Shown: positions 14,489 through 39,902 of the stretch, piece by piece
How positions within the stretch are numbered: position 1 is the first letter of the stretch
Layout of the letters: each line of letters starts with the position of its first letter
Assembly: GCA_013289585.1 (NCBI GenBank)
Contig: JABCZR010000027.1
Location: forward strand, 1 to 51,520
From: Acidobacteriota bacterium
GTDB lineage: Bacteria; Acidobacteriota; Terriglobia; Acidiferrales; UBA7541
DNA length: 51,520 nt
Direction: 5' to 3'
The notes under the pieces: model-generated
Seen by the model: only the letters and a program-made list of their open reading frames with translations
What the model was told of the DNA's origin: nothing
The model's database searches: none
Made by a program: the position numbers and the translations under genes

Positions 14489-17054
<2,566 letters not shown>

Positions 17055-17096: not shown

Positions 17097-17132
17097 AGGG
17101 GCGACGGTCGCGGCCGTCGCCCCTGACTTTTT
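17097..17132 (+). terminator. Rho-independent terminator after ahcY, built from a GTAGGGGC-type palindrome
   Basis: AGGGGCGACGG (17097-17107) pairs perfectly with 17114-17124 across a 6-nt loop, and GACTTTTTC follows. The same AGGGGC...GCCCCT layout recurs inside dnaE2 at 37480-37503, so this may be a dispersed palindrome serving as terminator. Confidence 0.75.
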
Positions 17133-34550: not shown

Positions 34551-34597
34551 ACTAGTCACCAGTCACTAGTCACCAGTCACCAATCACCGCTCACTTC
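34551..34597. repeat. Heptanucleotide array of the GTGACTG type
   Basis: On the plus strand: ACTAGTC, ACCAGTC, ACTAGTC, ACCAGTC, ACCAATC, ACCGCTC, six units that read GTGACTG-like on the minus strand. It spans the gap after dnaE2 and overlaps its last codons. A sister array lies inside dnaE2 at 37397-37440, in the opposite direction. Confidence 0.8.
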
Positions 34598-37500
34598 TTC
34601 AACGCTTCCAGCTTCTCCCCCTTGATCTGCCCATCCGGCTCCACGCGCCCCGTCACGCGCATCGTGCGCGTCTCGAACACCAGGCCGCCATAGCGGTCGT
34701 AAGCGTCGGGGAAGAGCACCACTTCATACACGCCGCGCTGATCCTCCAGCGTCACGAACATCATGTTGCGGTAATTTTTTGTTCCCACATGGCGGTAGGT
34801 CACGACCCACCCGCACAGCGTCACACGCTTCCCCCGCAGCCCTGGCAATTCGTTGCTCCAGACTTCGCCGTTGCGCGGCAAAAAATCCAGCGGATGCCCG
34901 CTCACGCAAACTTCCAGAATCTCCCGCTCGCACCGCAGCTTCTGTTCCAGCGTGTACTGTGGGACAGACATTCTTGTCTGTCCGCTTTTTTCCTCCGGCG
35001 GGAATAGAACCGGGATGAATCCCTGTTTTGTCTTCATTGCAACCGATGCCCGTGTTTCTGCACTTTTGTCCGCCTGCAACAGGTTCCACTGCCACAGCAT
35101 TTCCGGCCGCGTCCTCTGGCCTGTTTCATCGCCGGTTTCATCGAATGCTCCGCACTTGATCAGCGCGTGGATTTCATCGCATTCCACCGGCACGCGCCGC
35201 AGAAAATCTTCGAGCGATCGAAACGTTCCGTTTTCTTCCCGCGCCTGCACGATCGCCGTCATCGTTTCGACGCGCAATCCTTTTACCTGCATCAATCCGA
35301 CGCGCAGCGCGCGTTGTCCGCGGCCGTCTTCCGCCGTGTATTCCATCCGCGAATGATTCACCGACGGCAGCCGCACCGCGATGCCCCAGCGCTTGGCCTC
35401 TTCCACATAGGCCGACACGTGATAGAACCCTGCGCCCGCGCTGCACATCGCCGCAAGAAATTCCACCGTGTGGTGCGTTTTCAGATACGCCATGCGGTAC
35501 GAGATATCCGCATACGTTGCCGCATGCGCTTTGCAAAATCCGAAGCCCGCAAACTTTTCCACCATCATCCAGGTTTCTTCGCGCTGGGTGGCGGTCAGTC
35601 CCATCATCCCCGCTGCTAGCAGAAATTTCTCGCGCAAGCGTGTGTGGTCGCTGCGTCCGGAATATTTCACGGAGGACCGCCGCACCAGATCGGCTTCGGC
35701 CAATGTCATGTCTCCGAACGCCTGCGAAATCTGCATCACCTGTTCCTGGAAAATACACACGCCAAGCGAGTCACCTAGAATTTTCTTGAGCGCTGGATGC
35801 GCGTATACAATTTCCTCCTCTCCGCGCAGCCGCTTCACAAATAATTCTTTCGAACCATACTCCGCTGCTCCTGGACGGATCAGCGCCAGCGCCTGCGCAA
35901 TTTCCTCCAGCGTCCGCGCCGCCATCATGCGCAGCAGCCCGCGCATCGCCGGCGACTCGATCTGAAAAACTCCCATCGTTCGTCCCGTGGCGATAACCTC
36001 GCAAGTCTCCGGATCGTTTTCTGGGATCGCATCAAAATCAATCTCTCGCGCTTTCGGTCTCGGTGTCACTCCGTCCGGCGCAACAATGTTTTTTCCCTTT
36101 GCTTCCTTTACCTCCTTTCTCTCCTGAACTTCCTTTTTCTCGATGTTGTCCAGCGCCAGCGCCATCGTCGTGAATCCGCGCTGGCCCAGCAGATCCATCT
36201 TGATCAGCCCGAGCGCCTCGATGGCGTTCATGTCGTATTGCGTCACCACGATCCCTTTCGTCGCGCGTTCCAGCGGCGTCAGCCGCGTCAACGGCCGCGC
36301 GGAAATCACCGTCCCGCAGGGATGAATCCCCAGATGCCGCGGCGCATCATCGAGCCGCAACGCCACTTGCAGAATGGTTTTCCACGGCTCGTCGTCCACG
36401 GGAAGATCCTGGCATTCCGGCAAATCGCGAATCGCCGTCAGAATTTCGCGCACCGGCCGGTGCGGCAACCGCTTCGTGAAGCGATCCACTTCGCCCGGCG
36501 GCACGCCGAAAGCTTTCGCCACTTCGCGCACCGCCAGCCGCGCGTGCATGGTGATAAAACTTCCGATCATCGCGACACGGGGCTCTTGCCGAGCCCCCGC
36601 GACGTGTTCGGCGCCCCAGTGTTCGTAGACGTAATCGAGCAGCTCGTCGCGCCGCGCGCCGCAAATATCGATGTCGATGTCCGGGCAATCGCCGCGCTGC
36701 TCGTTCAAAAATCTTTCGAAGTACAGCCCCCACCGTATCGGGCACACCCGCGAAATTCCCAGGCAGTACGTCACCATCGAACTGGCCGCCGAGCCGCGTG
36801 CCACCGCCGGAATCCCGCGCCGCCGCGCTTCCTCCACGATGTCCCACACCAGCAGAAAATACGGCGCCAGATGCAGTTTTTCGATGACTTCGAGTTCGTG
36901 CGTGAGCCGCGAAAGAACTTCCGGGTGCAGAGGTTTGTAGCGTTTTCGCGCGCCATCAAAACTCAGTTTCCACAAATAGGAAAACGCAGATTCGCCCTCC
37001 GGCACGCTGAATTCCGGAAAAATAGTTTTTCCCAGTTCGAGCTGTAAATTGCAGCGGTCGGCGATCTCCAGCGTCGCGCGCAGCAATTCCGGATGATCGG
37101 GGAAAAGTTTTTGCATTTCCGCCGCTGGCTTGAACCATGCTTCGCCGGTCGTGATTTCCGGCGCCGCGACGGTCGTCAGCAATCCGCCTGTTCGAATGGC
37201 ATTCACCGCGCGATGATGCAGGTGCTCCTCGGGCCGCAGAAAGTGCACGTTGTTTGTCGCCACTAACGGCACGCTAAGTTCGCGCCCGATCTGTTCGGCT
37301 TCGCGCAGCGTTCGCCGATCTCCCGGTGACAAAAGCTGCACTTCGATGTACAAGCGGTCGCCGAAAATCTCTTTGAGGCGTGAAAAGGGATTGGTGGCTC
37401 GTGACTGGTGACTGGTGATTGGTGACTCGTGACTCGCGCCAGCCGATCTCTGCTCGTGTGCATCGGCCCCTTGTCGAGCAGGGGCACGATGTATCGTGCC

Positions 37501-38058
37501 CCTACGGTTGTTCGTATCAAGCAATCTTACCGGTATCGGGCACAGCGCGATCACGCCGCGGCCGTGTTCCGCTAATTCCTGCAACGTCACAGGCCGGCCA
37601 CCTTCTTTTCCGGCCGCCGCAGCCGCATCCCGCGTCAGGTTCGTCGTGCCCAAATGGCGCAGCGTCACGAGCTGGCACAAATTGCTGTAGCCGTCCATGT
37701 CCGCCGCCAGCAAGGTTATTTGGAAGCTTTGCGAATTTCGAATTTCGCTTTTCGAATTTCGAAATGCGTCGTTCGAAACAGCAAATTCGACATCCAGTAC
37801 TACGCCGACGATCGGCTTGATGCCCGCTTTTTGCGCCGCCTTATAAAACGGCACCGCCGCATACAAACCATTCGAATCCGTCAGCGCCACCGCCGGCATC
37901 TTCTGCTCCACCGCAGCGGCGATGATCTCTTCGGGCGAACCCACGCCCCGCAAGAACGAATAGTGACTGTGACAATGCAAATGTACGAACACGGAAGCCC
38001 CGGCCCGGAAAGGGAAGAAGGCATGCCCGCTTTTCAGCAGGCATGCTCGTTCATTCAA
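34591..38058 (-). CDS. dnaE2: Error-prone DNA polymerase III alpha (DnaE2/ImuC-type)
   Basis: 1155 residues. A PHP domain (HLHCHSHYSFLRGVGSPEEII) is followed by the DnaE polymerase core (ARGSAASSMVTYCLGIS, DIDIDICGARRDELLDYVYEHWG), helix-hairpin-helix and a C-terminal OB fold (VTLCGWVVTYRHVGTKNYRNMMFVTLEDQRG). Such polymerases serve damage-induced translesion synthesis with a Y-family partner, which is the next gene upstream. In-frame insertions coded by intergenic-type repeats are seen at about residues 95-110 (FRNSKSEIRNSQ), 183-225 and 1020-1035. All frames stay open, so the protein seems to tolerate them. No ImuA is adjacent. Confidence 0.93.
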   Translation of the reverse strand: MNERACLLKSGHAFFPFRAGASVFVHLHCHSHYSFLRGVGSPEEIIAAAVEQKMPAVALTDSNGLYAAVPFYKAAQKAGIKPIVGVVLDVEFAVSNDAFRNSKSEIRNSQSFQITLLAADMDGYSNLCQLVTLRHLGTTNLTRDAAAAAGKEGGRPVTLQELAEHGRGVIALCPIPVRLLDTNNRRGTIHRAPARQGADAHEQRSAGASHESPITSHQSRATNPFSRLKEIFGDRLYIEVQLLSPGDRRTLREAEQIGRELSVPLVATNNVHFLRPEEHLHHRAVNAIRTGGLLTTVAAPEITTGEAWFKPAAEMQKLFPDHPELLRATLEIADRCNLQLELGKTIFPEFSVPEGESAFSYLWKLSFDGARKRYKPLHPEVLSRLTHELEVIEKLHLAPYFLLVWDIVEEARRRGIPAVARGSAASSMVTYCLGISRVCPIRWGLYFERFLNEQRGDCPDIDIDICGARRDELLDYVYEHWGAEHVAGARQEPRVAMIGSFITMHARLAVREVAKAFGVPPGEVDRFTKRLPHRPVREILTAIRDLPECQDLPVDDEPWKTILQVALRLDDAPRHLGIHPCGTVISARPLTRLTPLERATKGIVVTQYDMNAIEALGLIKMDLLGQRGFTTMALALDNIEKKEVQERKEVKEAKGKNIVAPDGVTPRPKAREIDFDAIPENDPETCEVIATGRTMGVFQIESPAMRGLLRMMAARTLEEIAQALALIRPGAAEYGSKELFVKRLRGEEEIVYAHPALKKILGDSLGVCIFQEQVMQISQAFGDMTLAEADLVRRSSVKYSGRSDHTRLREKFLLAAGMMGLTATQREETWMMVEKFAGFGFCKAHAATYADISYRMAYLKTHHTVEFLAAMCSAGAGFYHVSAYVEEAKRWGIAVRLPSVNHSRMEYTAEDGRGQRALRVGLMQVKGLRVETMTAIVQAREENGTFRSLEDFLRRVPVECDEIHALIKCGAFDETGDETGQRTRPEMLWQWNLLQADKSAETRASVAMKTKQGFIPVLFPPEEKSGQTRMSVPQYTLEQKLRCEREILEVCVSGHPLDFLPRNGEVWSNELPGLRGKRVTLCGWVVTYRHVGTKNYRNMMFVTLEDQRGVYEVVLFPDAYDRYGGLVFETRTMRVTGRVEPDGQIKGEKLEALKK
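34962..34983. repeat. Palindromic repeat inside dnaE2 (ACAGACA type)
   Basis: GGACAGACA (34962-34970) and TGTCTGTCC (34975-34983) flank a 4-nt loop. It encodes the SGQTRMSVPQ stretch near residue 1025, which does not look like DnaE core sequence. Confidence 0.8.
37397..37440. repeat. Heptanucleotide array inside dnaE2
   Basis: Units GTGGCTC, GTGACTG, GTGACTG, GTGATTG, GTGACTC, GTGACTC on the plus strand. Read in the dnaE2 frame it encodes SHESPITSHQSRAT, a stretch without fold. Confidence 0.8.
37480..37503. repeat. Palindromic repeat inside dnaE2 (AGGGGCACGAT type)
   Basis: AGGGGCACGAT (37480-37490) and ATCGTGCCCCT (37493-37503) form perfect 11-bp arms around two bases. In the gene it encodes RGTIHRAPAR. 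It resembles the terminator palindrome at 17097. Confidence 0.85.
37732..37767. repeat. Heptanucleotide array inside dnaE2 (GAATTTC type)
   Basis: GAATTTC, GAATTTC, GCTTTTC, GAATTTC, GAAATGC in succession. It encodes FRNSKSEIRNSQSF in the PHP-domain region. Confidence 0.7.
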
Positions 38059-38100
38059 AGATTCAACTGAGGTAGGGAAGGGAGGAAAAGCTTCAGCAAA

Positions 38101-39579
38101 CTACCGCGACAAACAGGGCGTTGAGAGGACCAGGCCGTTGGGCTTGGTGGCGTAATGTTCGCGGAGTTCGAGGCCGTTGCCGTAGAAGACGGCGTTCCAG
38201 CCGTAGCGGCCGCGGACGGAATCGAGGCCGCGATTCAGATACCAGCGGCGATTGGCGTTGGTGTCGAAGAGTTCGTTTTGTCGGCGGTCGGTTTCGAGGT
38301 TGGTTACGCTGACGCCGACGAGGCGGACGGCCACGCGGCGCGTGAACAATTTGTCGAAGAGATCTTTTGCGGCGGCGAGCAAGGCGCGCTCGTCGTTCGT
38401 TGGTTTGCTGATGCGCACCGCTTGATGCGCGGAAAAGTGATCCACATAGCGGATGCGCAGGCCGATGGTGCGCGCTTGCTTGCCGTACTCGCGGAGGGTC
38501 GAGCCGATGCGCTCGCTCAAATATTCGATGAGGCCGCCGAGAAACTCCGTATCAATCGTCCCGCCTTCAATGGTGGTCTCGCGCGAAACCGATTTCGGCG
38601 TCGAAGGCAGCAGCACTTCGCGTCCGTCCAGCCCGCGCGCGCGCTCCCAGACCTGCTGGCCAATGACCTCGCCGAAAGCTGCCTGCAGCGCCAGTTTCGG
38701 CACTTCGCGCAATTGGCCGATGGTGGTGACGCCGCGCTCGGCCAGCATTCCGGCGTGCACGTGGCCGATGCCGCATAATTTCTCCACCGGCAGCGGCGTC
38801 AGGAAGGCTTCCTCCTCGCCGGGAGCGACGATGCGAAACCCGCGTGGGCGTTCCAGCCGCGACGCGATGGATGCCACTACTTTCGTACGCGCCGCGCCAA
38901 CCGAAACGCTCAAGCCCGTGCGCTTCAAGATCTCCATCTGCAGCCGGCGCAGCGTTCCCGGAAAATCCGGATACAGCCGCTCCGTCCCGGCAAAGTCCAG
39001 GTAAAAATCATCCAGCGCCGCGGTTTCCACCGCCGGCGTATACGTTTCCAGAATGCGCCGCACGCGCTCGGCATAATCCGCGTAGTGCTCGTACTGCCCC
39101 GGCACAACGATGGCTTTCGGGCAAATGCGCAGCGCTTCGCGAAAGCCCATCGCCGTTCGAACGCCGAGGAATTTTGCTTCGTAGCTCGCCGAAGCCACAC
39201 AGCCGCGCCCCACCAGCACGGGCTTCCCGCGCAGCCTGGGATTCAGCACCTGCTCGACGGACGCGAAAAACGCGTCCACATCCACGTGCACGATGTTGGA
39301 AGTTTTGGGGGTCGAATTTTTGCATAACCCCAGCCACGCCCAGCCCGACCACGGATTTCGCTCCGCCGCCGTTTCCTTTTGCGGCGTTTCCGAAGAACCC
39401 GCAGGGCTATTAAAGCCCTGCGCTACAGTTTCCTGCTCCGTGTCCGCCTCATGCGGCGCACGATGGGATTCGCAGGAAGCTCCGGAGTTTTCCTGCGCGG
39501 CGATTTGCCGTGCAGCTTCGCTTGCTTGCAGGACCTCAACCGCTGGGTTGGGGAATACGCTTTCGACACAGACGTCCAT
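38101..39579 (-). CDS. Y-family DNA polymerase (DinB/Pol IV-like)
   Basis: 492 residues from an ATG preceded by CAGGAG. A 95-residue N-terminal extension without fold precedes the catalytic start NIVHVDVDAFFASVEQVLNPRLRGKPVLVG. Palm, thumb (GIGHVHAGMLAERGVTTIGQL) and little-finger regions follow. The second metal-binding motif reads ALDDFYLDFAGTERLY: the usual SIDEAYLD Asp-Glu is Asp-Asp. The tail lacks an obvious beta-clamp motif. It lies 42 nt upstream of dnaE2 on the same strand, so the two polymerases are probably co-expressed for translesion synthesis. No LexA box was recognised upstream. Confidence 0.9.
   Translation of the reverse strand: MDVCVESVFPNPAVEVLQASEAARQIAAQENSGASCESHRAPHEADTEQETVAQGFNSPAGSSETPQKETAAERNPWSGWAWLGLCKNSTPKTSNIVHVDVDAFFASVEQVLNPRLRGKPVLVGRGCVASASYEAKFLGVRTAMGFREALRICPKAIVVPGQYEHYADYAERVRRILETYTPAVETAALDDFYLDFAGTERLYPDFPGTLRRLQMEILKRTGLSVSVGAARTKVVASIASRLERPRGFRIVAPGEEEAFLTPLPVEKLCGIGHVHAGMLAERGVTTIGQLREVPKLALQAAFGEVIGQQVWERARGLDGREVLLPSTPKSVSRETTIEGGTIDTEFLGGLIEYLSERIGSTLREYGKQARTIGLRIRYVDHFSAHQAVRISKPTNDERALLAAAKDLFDKLFTRRVAVRLVGVSVTNLETDRRQNELFDTNANRRWYLNRGLDSVRGRYGWNAVFYGNGLELREHYATKPNGLVLSTPCLSR
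39401..39421. repeat. Palindromic repeat inside the Y-family polymerase gene
   Basis: GCAGGGCT (39401-39408) and AGCCCTGC (39414-39421) flank ATTAA. It encodes part of QGFNSPAGSS in the N-terminal extension. Confidence 0.8.
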
Positions 39580-39902
39580 GGCGGCTCCTGTTAACTGTGA
39601 CCGCACCAGCGGTCAACGCAGGGAAGCGGGATGCATATACTGTTTCCGAGTGAGAGCCGATGGTTTCGCTCGGCTCGGGATCGAGGGATCGTCTTGCAGC
39701 CGACCCCTCACCCCGCTTACGGCTCGGAACTTTCAACGGGCGGCGGCCGACTCGTGAGAGCCAGATCGGCAATGGAGGCGGCGCGCCACCCGTTTCCCGT
39801 TTCCTCTACCGCCCCGGACTATAGGCGAACAAAAAGCGAAAGTCAAGGATATGTTTGACGGGTAACGGGCCAAGCTTCTAGATCTGTTAGTGATGTGATT
39901 AA
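39580..39902. other. Gene-poor stretch upstream of the polymerase pair
   Basis: No coding frame with a ribosome site, tRNA or clear LexA-type operator is visible. The segment must contain the promoter for the minus-strand polymerases, but no box stands out. Confidence 0.4.

Follow-up and report, generated by a model that had tools for sequence, protein, structure and literature searches.

Repetitive extragenic palindromes (REPs) of the GTAG-tagged type very probably entered the coding DNA of 2 adjacent DNA polymerase genes, one for a DnaE2-like polymerase and the other for its Y-family partner, in ancestors of the Acidobacteriota species studied here, and survived at places where protein loops tolerate changes in length. 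The genes lie in a stretch of 51,520 nucleotides (the window), which is contig C27 of the 4.73-Mb draft genome G000; on the minus strand, the Y-family polymerase gene comes first and is followed by the dnaE2-like gene (Table 1). A preliminary description of the window had reported 3 perfect palindromes of intergenic type in this gene pair, none of them breaking a reading frame. All 3 were found where reported and all fall within open coding frames, but they are hairpins with loops of 4, 2, and 5 nt, and none is perfect. They belong to a set of 10 window hairpins with arms of at least 9 bp and loops of at most 8 nt. The 2 hairpins in the dnaE2-like gene, A and B, represent dispersed GTAG-tagged REP families of this genome, most copies of which are located between genes, in agreement with the view that intergenic-type repeats had come to lie in frame in both polymerase genes. 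In all likelihood, the window copy of A is a half-decayed head-to-head pair (REP doublet forming a hairpin, REPIN), B is a single REP, and the palindrome in the Y-family gene, C, is a lone REP-like relic.

A search of the own genome for family A at up to 2 mismatches yielded 20 sites, and pooling with the GGACAGGCAGGAATGCCTGTCC variant raised the number to 35, with 0 matches to the reversed-pattern controls in either case. The GTAG/CTAC tag accompanies 28 of the 35 sites (in the window copy, GTAG is mutated to GTGG), and for 16 sites a partner hairpin is located within 120 bp, giving REPIN-type inverted pairs. Altogether, 33 sites are intergenic or located at the end of a gene, at least 4 of them overlapping a called gene end (overlaps of this kind, by A or B sites, include L007, L014, L107, L117, and L026). 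The other 2 are inside genes, namely, the dnaE2-like gene and the gene for a helicase with an MrfA Zn-binding domain (L008:1202-3022, minus strand), in which the in-frame REP-A reads SVGQTFLSVRSS. The family B pattern, GTAGGGGC...GCCCC, was matched in 10 of the 10 genomes searched (0 to 4 matches per strand for the reversed control); at up to 2 mismatches, it occurs at 8 places in the own genome (control, 0), 1 of which is inside a gene. The genome also encodes a candidate enzyme for REP mobility: a REP-associated tyrosine transposase (RAYT)-type gene on contig C8 (L031, about 64940-65530), which scores above the cut-off of Pfam Y1_Tnp. One REP-A is located a few bases before its start codon and a second one over its 3′ end, so that the C-terminus of the product (GGRTDIPVCPS) is REP-encoded; the gene is flanked on both sides by the same REP, the arrangement that defines a REPtron. 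A second RAYT gene, on contig C20, passes the NCBIfam cut-off (110.6), with no REP-A hairpin within 1.5 kb.

The REPs recur across the relatives of this bacterium (Acidobacteria, many of them labelled gp2 and one Candidatus Acidiferrum). Using a criterion of arms of at least 9 bp and loops of at most 6 nt, we counted 43 hairpins in 34 DnaE2-like rows, including that of the window (112.4 kb); codon-shuffled versions of these rows averaged 3.95, which makes the excess approximately eleven-fold. By contrast, the replicative DnaE open reading frames (ORFs) from 20 genomes (71.7 kb) contained 2 hairpins versus 2.95 in the shuffled sequences, that is, no excess. The alignment of the orthologues revealed 4 variable places, near residues 95-115, 170-227, 642-670, and 993-1036 (sites 1 to 4), which carry several REP families and GTGACTGG-type repeats as well as repetitive peptides of the KEVKEIKEV- or SKNEIRN-type. 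These 4 loops make up 12.5% of the protein length and hold 30 of the 43 hairpins, distributed over 21 of 33 DnaE2-like genes and differing in REP type; L059, a broken gene, was omitted from the trees and from this loop count, and L060 was additionally omitted from one of the 2 trees. In an AlphaFold model, the predicted local distance difference test (pLDDT) score drops below 50 at residues 95-108, 177-219, 650-672, and 999-1066, coinciding with the insert sites. The inserts had been described as interrupting conserved domains, but they are located in stretches that vary among orthologues and are modelled with low confidence, although 2 of the 4 places fall within the Pfam PHP boundaries.

Comparison of the orthologues confirmed that relatives differ in the repeat they carry. 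At site 4, L033 has an intact REP-A pair, GTAGGACAGGCATTCCTGCCTGTC - spacer - GGACAGACAAGAATGTCTGTCC; in the window, the right half of this pair persists and the left one is decayed. The partner is intact as GTAGGACAGGCATTCCTGCCTGTC in L035 as well. No case was seen for A in which the same residues were encoded without palindromic DNA, since L033 and L035 share both the residues and the REP DNA, with 1 arm mutated in L035. At site 3, REP-A pairs are found in 3 relatives, 2 of which (L034 and L046) have a mutated left half. The distribution of the pairs disagrees with the tree, with L035 carrying them at sites 3 and 4, its sister L046 and L034 at site 3 only, and L032/L033 at site 4 only; recombination or repeated gain may lie behind this.

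In the Y-family polymerase, hairpins are similarly concentrated, with 7 in 5.4 kb of the N-terminal extension versus 2 in 27.3 kb of the core (23 rows, which are related and hence do not represent independent events; several are incomplete at the 5′ end). Further copies across the genome, whose absence had been named as a refutation of the mobile-repeat view, exist for A and B but not for C, which has a single copy in G000 and no exact match in any of the 35 remaining genomes of the 36 from the genus. At the corresponding position, however, GTAG-tagged palindromes that differ in arms or loops are present in the Y-family genes of L062, L064, and L084, and a decayed palindrome in that of L078. 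The Y-family N-terminal extension of L062 additionally contains an in-frame, perfect 32-bp palindrome, TTGTAGTGGCGCAGCTAGCTGCGCCACTACAA, seemingly from another REP family.

We propose that GTAG-type REPs, probably brought in by RAYT-type transposition, would have entered both polymerase genes in ancestors of the species. Being readable through in several frames, such REPs could survive in a loop, linker, or extension that tolerates a change in length, where they would be close to neutral; loop tolerance together with weak constraint might then account for their concentration in both genes. Several observations weigh against this proposal. No movement was observed, and no precise pair of empty and filled sites was isolated. 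As many as 13 of the 43 hairpins are outside the loops, and 12 of the 33 genes have no loop hairpin; because the DnaE2-like genes are related, the number of events behind the 43 hairpins is far smaller, and independence of the hairpins is assumed in the binomial p value for the concentration in loops. The AlphaFold model is of moderate quality (mean pLDDT, 64.7), and other stretches are low-confidence as well. The coding part (329 kb) of 400 kb sampled from the own genome speaks for the proposal, with 20 hairpins of which one, in the helicase, is GTAG-tagged; against it, the 71 kb of non-coding DNA contained 17, including those at gene edges, with GTAG/CTAC on only 2 by the test used. The C8 RAYT-type gene scores 78.4 bits with NCBIfam REP_Tyr_transpos, just below the cut-off of 80, and an exact-pattern search of the 36 genus genomes gave no second copy of palindrome C. 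Finally, the genomes are drafts and the named records mostly metagenome-assembled genomes, and sites were assigned as inside or between genes with a home-made gene caller trained on 14 window ORFs, which included dnaE2 and dinB themselves.

The rows at site 2 suggest that, once inserted, a REP can change its type. A B-like palindrome is present there in 16 of 34 rows, in the frame R-R-G-x-x-x-x-A-P or a variant; this count, like that of 13 of 30 rows for PrmC (see below), covers a single codon phase, and a frame-free list of hairpins was made as a check. In that list, all B-like hairpins at site 2 are in one phase and the A-like hairpins of L056 and L060 in another. L036 and L047 have the flanks and the outer arms AGCAACCGTAGGGGC...GCCCCTAC in common and the cores ACGATATATCGT and GCAGCATGCTGC, respectively. 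Across the 16 rows, all 80 cells of the inner 5 pairs are paired, a fraction biased upwards because the rows were chosen for palindromy, and the 10 pairs examined display 26 two-sided changes, compared with a mean of 9.1 and a maximum of 17 in shuffled data. Because the 2 arms vary in concert within constant flanks and a constant frame, the REP type at a fixed site would appear to be changeable.

Such in-place change could equally reflect exchange with other REPs or local correction templated by the hairpin. The latter process is known as quasipalindrome correction, and under it the co-varying arms would trace back to one old insertion corrected locally, an account we regard as possible without favoring it. 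Site and frame are unchanged in the frame-free list, flanks are conserved in several rows, and transition pair changes separate the main cores, with ACGACATGTCGT and ACGGCATGCCGT as possible intermediates. Conversely, the cores correspond to dispersed subtypes, an identical core being present elsewhere in at least 7 of 10 genomes (by eye, among the matches listed); however, this is a weak objection, since most of the 10 genomes contain the common cores, so that a match within the own genome carries little weight. The exchange reading can be extended further, in that the 4 DnaE2-like loops, 1 PrmC loop, and the Y-family extension would be standing docking sites at which the REP subtype is exchanged while flanks and frame are kept, the REP/RAYT system continuing to rewrite disordered segments in the manner of a slow cassette; we consider this rather unlikely.

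The polymerases are not the only proteins with in-frame REPs. Outside dnaE2, 67 GTAGGGGC..GCCCC places were counted in 7 genomes, and 64 were classified (60 plus L164, L174, L023, and L025). The remaining 3 are L146, which is non-coding or at a gene edge, G035 C34:19423, upstream of a dnaE2-like gene, and G041 C129:118, which was left out. Of the classified places, 10 are inside ORFs (9 of 60 and 1 of 4), and 9 of these are REP-like, the hosts being PrmC (3 genomes), PurL (2 genomes), TrpS, a radical-SAM protein of MtaB-like type, a TPR protein (at its N-terminus), and a protein that matched nothing in Pfam. L203, a pattern match without a REP-like palindrome in a reverse-transcriptase-like ORF, was counted as chance, and L189 is near the N-terminus of its ORF, the true start of which may be downstream. 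In the own genome, both PrmC and PurL carry in-frame REPs: PurL (L164:1220-3025, minus strand, G000 C1) contains 2 REP-like peptides, ARAQHAAPLQ and SVGAQHVAPLL, and that of G055 (L211) contains 1 at a different place. In 13 of the 30 PrmC loci (L239-L268), a single loop that precedes the NPPY motif carries a palindrome in which 10 or more of the 15 pairs match, the types differing; the frame-free list shows 10 loop hairpins in a common phase (GAxxxxP or a variant), and 3 hairpins of other sequence in the PrmC stretch are out of phase (those of L255 and L256 and the second one of L250). Thus, loop tolerance is general, and the 2 polymerases are a marked case of it, not the sole one. Rare use of the polymerases, which had been offered as the reason why they tolerate repeats, finds no support, as REPs are also present in PrmC, PurL, and the helicase of the own genome and in TrpS and the MtaB-like enzyme of relatives.

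It is improbable that the REP-encoded loops are an adaptive decoration, selected because they alter polymerase activity or partner contacts, as in the mutator idea of PMC3733652. The strong concentration of hairpins in the DnaE2-like gene relative to the replicative DnaE is what such selection could produce, and a replication/repair gene bias has been described for other bacteria in the available text of the same study. However, sequence and REP type vary widely among the relatives, loop hairpins are absent from 12 of 33 genes, the segments are of low confidence in the AlphaFold model, and PrmC, PurL, and TrpS hold REPs likewise. Still less probable, to the point of being hard to credit, is a functional mRNA or DNA hairpin (for pausing, stability, or as a gyrase site) kept by selection: the complete pairing of the inner 5 pairs at site 2 and the 26 two-sided changes agree with it, but the rows had been chosen for palindromy, 18 of 34 rows are below the threshold at that site, and positions, families, and numbers vary among relatives. 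Chance palindromes in GC-rich coding DNA, of which some hairpins in conserved parts have the look (e.g., CGCACCGGCCGGTGCG in PHRPVR), have next to no likelihood as a general explanation, being refuted for A and B by the approximately eleven-fold excess over codon shuffles and by sequence identity with dispersed repeats, and conceivable for C alone. We retain the entry of GTAG-type REPs into tolerant loops as the best explanation.

Table 1. Polymerase genes, repeats, and variable loops in the window
Feature	Position	Strand	Details
DnaE2-like second DnaE-type (C-family) DNA polymerase, 1155 aa	34591..38058	-	Pfam PHP, DNA_pol3_alpha, finger, HHH_6, OB
Y-family (DinB/Pol IV-like) polymerase, ~100 aa N-terminal extension	38101..39606	-	Pfam; directly upstream of dnaE2-like gene
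REP family A hairpin, site 4	34962..34983	-	9-bp arms, 4-nt loop; encodes GQTRMSVP
Decayed partner REP of site-4 REP-A pair	35008..35031	-	L032 codons compared with those of L033/L035
REP family B with GTAG tag, site 2	37480..37505	-	Hairpin 37480-37503, 11-bp arms, 2-nt loop; encodes RRGTIHRAP
Palindrome C with GTAG tag, Y-family N-terminal extension	39400..39426	-	Hairpin 39400-39422, 9-bp arms, 5-nt loop; encodes VAQGFNSPA
Tandemly repeated short GTGACTGG-type unit, in frame (site 2)	37401..37436	-	Encodes part of SHESPITSHQSR
Site 1 variable loop (FRNSKSEIRNSQSF), repeat-like AT-rich TTCGAATTTCG DNA	37723..37767	-	Sequence and orthologue alignment
Site 3 variable loop (KKEVQERKEVKEAKGK...)	36055..36132	-	Holds REP-A pairs in L034, L035, L046
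Palindrome downstream of ahcY	17097..17124		Shares outer 6 bp only with family B; no GTAG

The product of the dnaE2-like gene scores above the cut-off of TIGR00594 (superfamily polc) and is 36% identical to the separate DnaE encoded on contig C3 of the same genome. We use the name DnaE2-like because it is a second DnaE next to a Y-family polymerase, and not DnaE2 because it reaches 643.9 bits with the NCBIfam error-prone DNA polymerase model NF004225, below the cut-off of 939. The Y-family polymerase has the Pfam domains IMS (starting at residue 108), IMS_HHH_1, and IMS_C, and scores below the cut-offs of most NCBIfam Pol IV models. In one relative, G029, the middle of the dnaE2-like gene (L059 and L084) has been lost and the leftover pieces are not in one frame. 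Repeats of the GTGACTGGTGA type are found within the dnaE2-like gene of the window, after its stop codon (34556-34580, where the unit is of the GTGACTGG type), and in the dnaE2-like loci of several relatives, and a perfect GTAGGGGC...GCCCCTAC palindrome is present at G035 C34:19423-19450, just upstream of the dnaE2-like gene there. The family B hairpin had been likened to the palindrome that follows ahcY (15558-17054), but the resemblance is limited to the outer AGGGGC/GCCCCT and the latter palindrome has no GTAG.

GTAG REPs, and REPs within genes, were the subject of a 2013 study, reportedly by Di Nocera et al. The available text of PMC3733652 (2013) describes intragenic REPs in several species, many of them in replication/repair genes with DnaE2 named, and suggests linkers or loops as tolerant places as well as a mutator role; Acidobacteria come up once in its main text, in connection with TIRYT-type transposases. 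The kind of event seen here is therefore already known, and our REPs share with the GTAG REPs described in it the tag, the hairpin, the dimers, the link to RAYT, the mostly intergenic location, and the bias of intragenic copies towards replication/repair genes. The text of that study does not settle whether the presence of REPs in repair polymerases is accidental or has a cause. As REPs are found at several places of one gene in many relatives, with the replicative DnaE as a built-in control, tolerance and selection become separable. The present case contributes its taxon and number of sites, controlled recurrence in multiple loops across the genus, a paralogue that serves as control, REPs in PrmC and PurL, and the apparent in-place change of type; beyond what is described in PMC3733652, so far as available, stand the 4 loops plus the Y-family partner, the genus-wide turnover, the DnaE1 control, and the recurrent PrmC loop. 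Non-coding mobile DNA is seen here to become protein sequence in loops, where the REP type may change in place.

Likeness to other known systems is partial. As in REPINs and RAYT transposons, in the portion of PMC3116915 available, there are 2 inverted REPs separated by a spacer of some tens of bp, and a RAYT-type gene with the same REP. According to the available text of PMC8049555, REPs owe their name to their extragenic location, whereas here one pair is translated. Palindromic repeats in frame inside many unrelated proteins are also characteristic of the Rickettsia palindromic elements (PMC10969869 and PMC3733652, available text), which, however, measure ~150 bp according to the former, compared with 22-30 bp for the single REPs and ~75 bp for the pair described here, a length outside that of the Rickettsia elements. 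Unlike those elements, the REPs of this different lineage are GTAG-tagged and accompanied by a RAYT-type gene.

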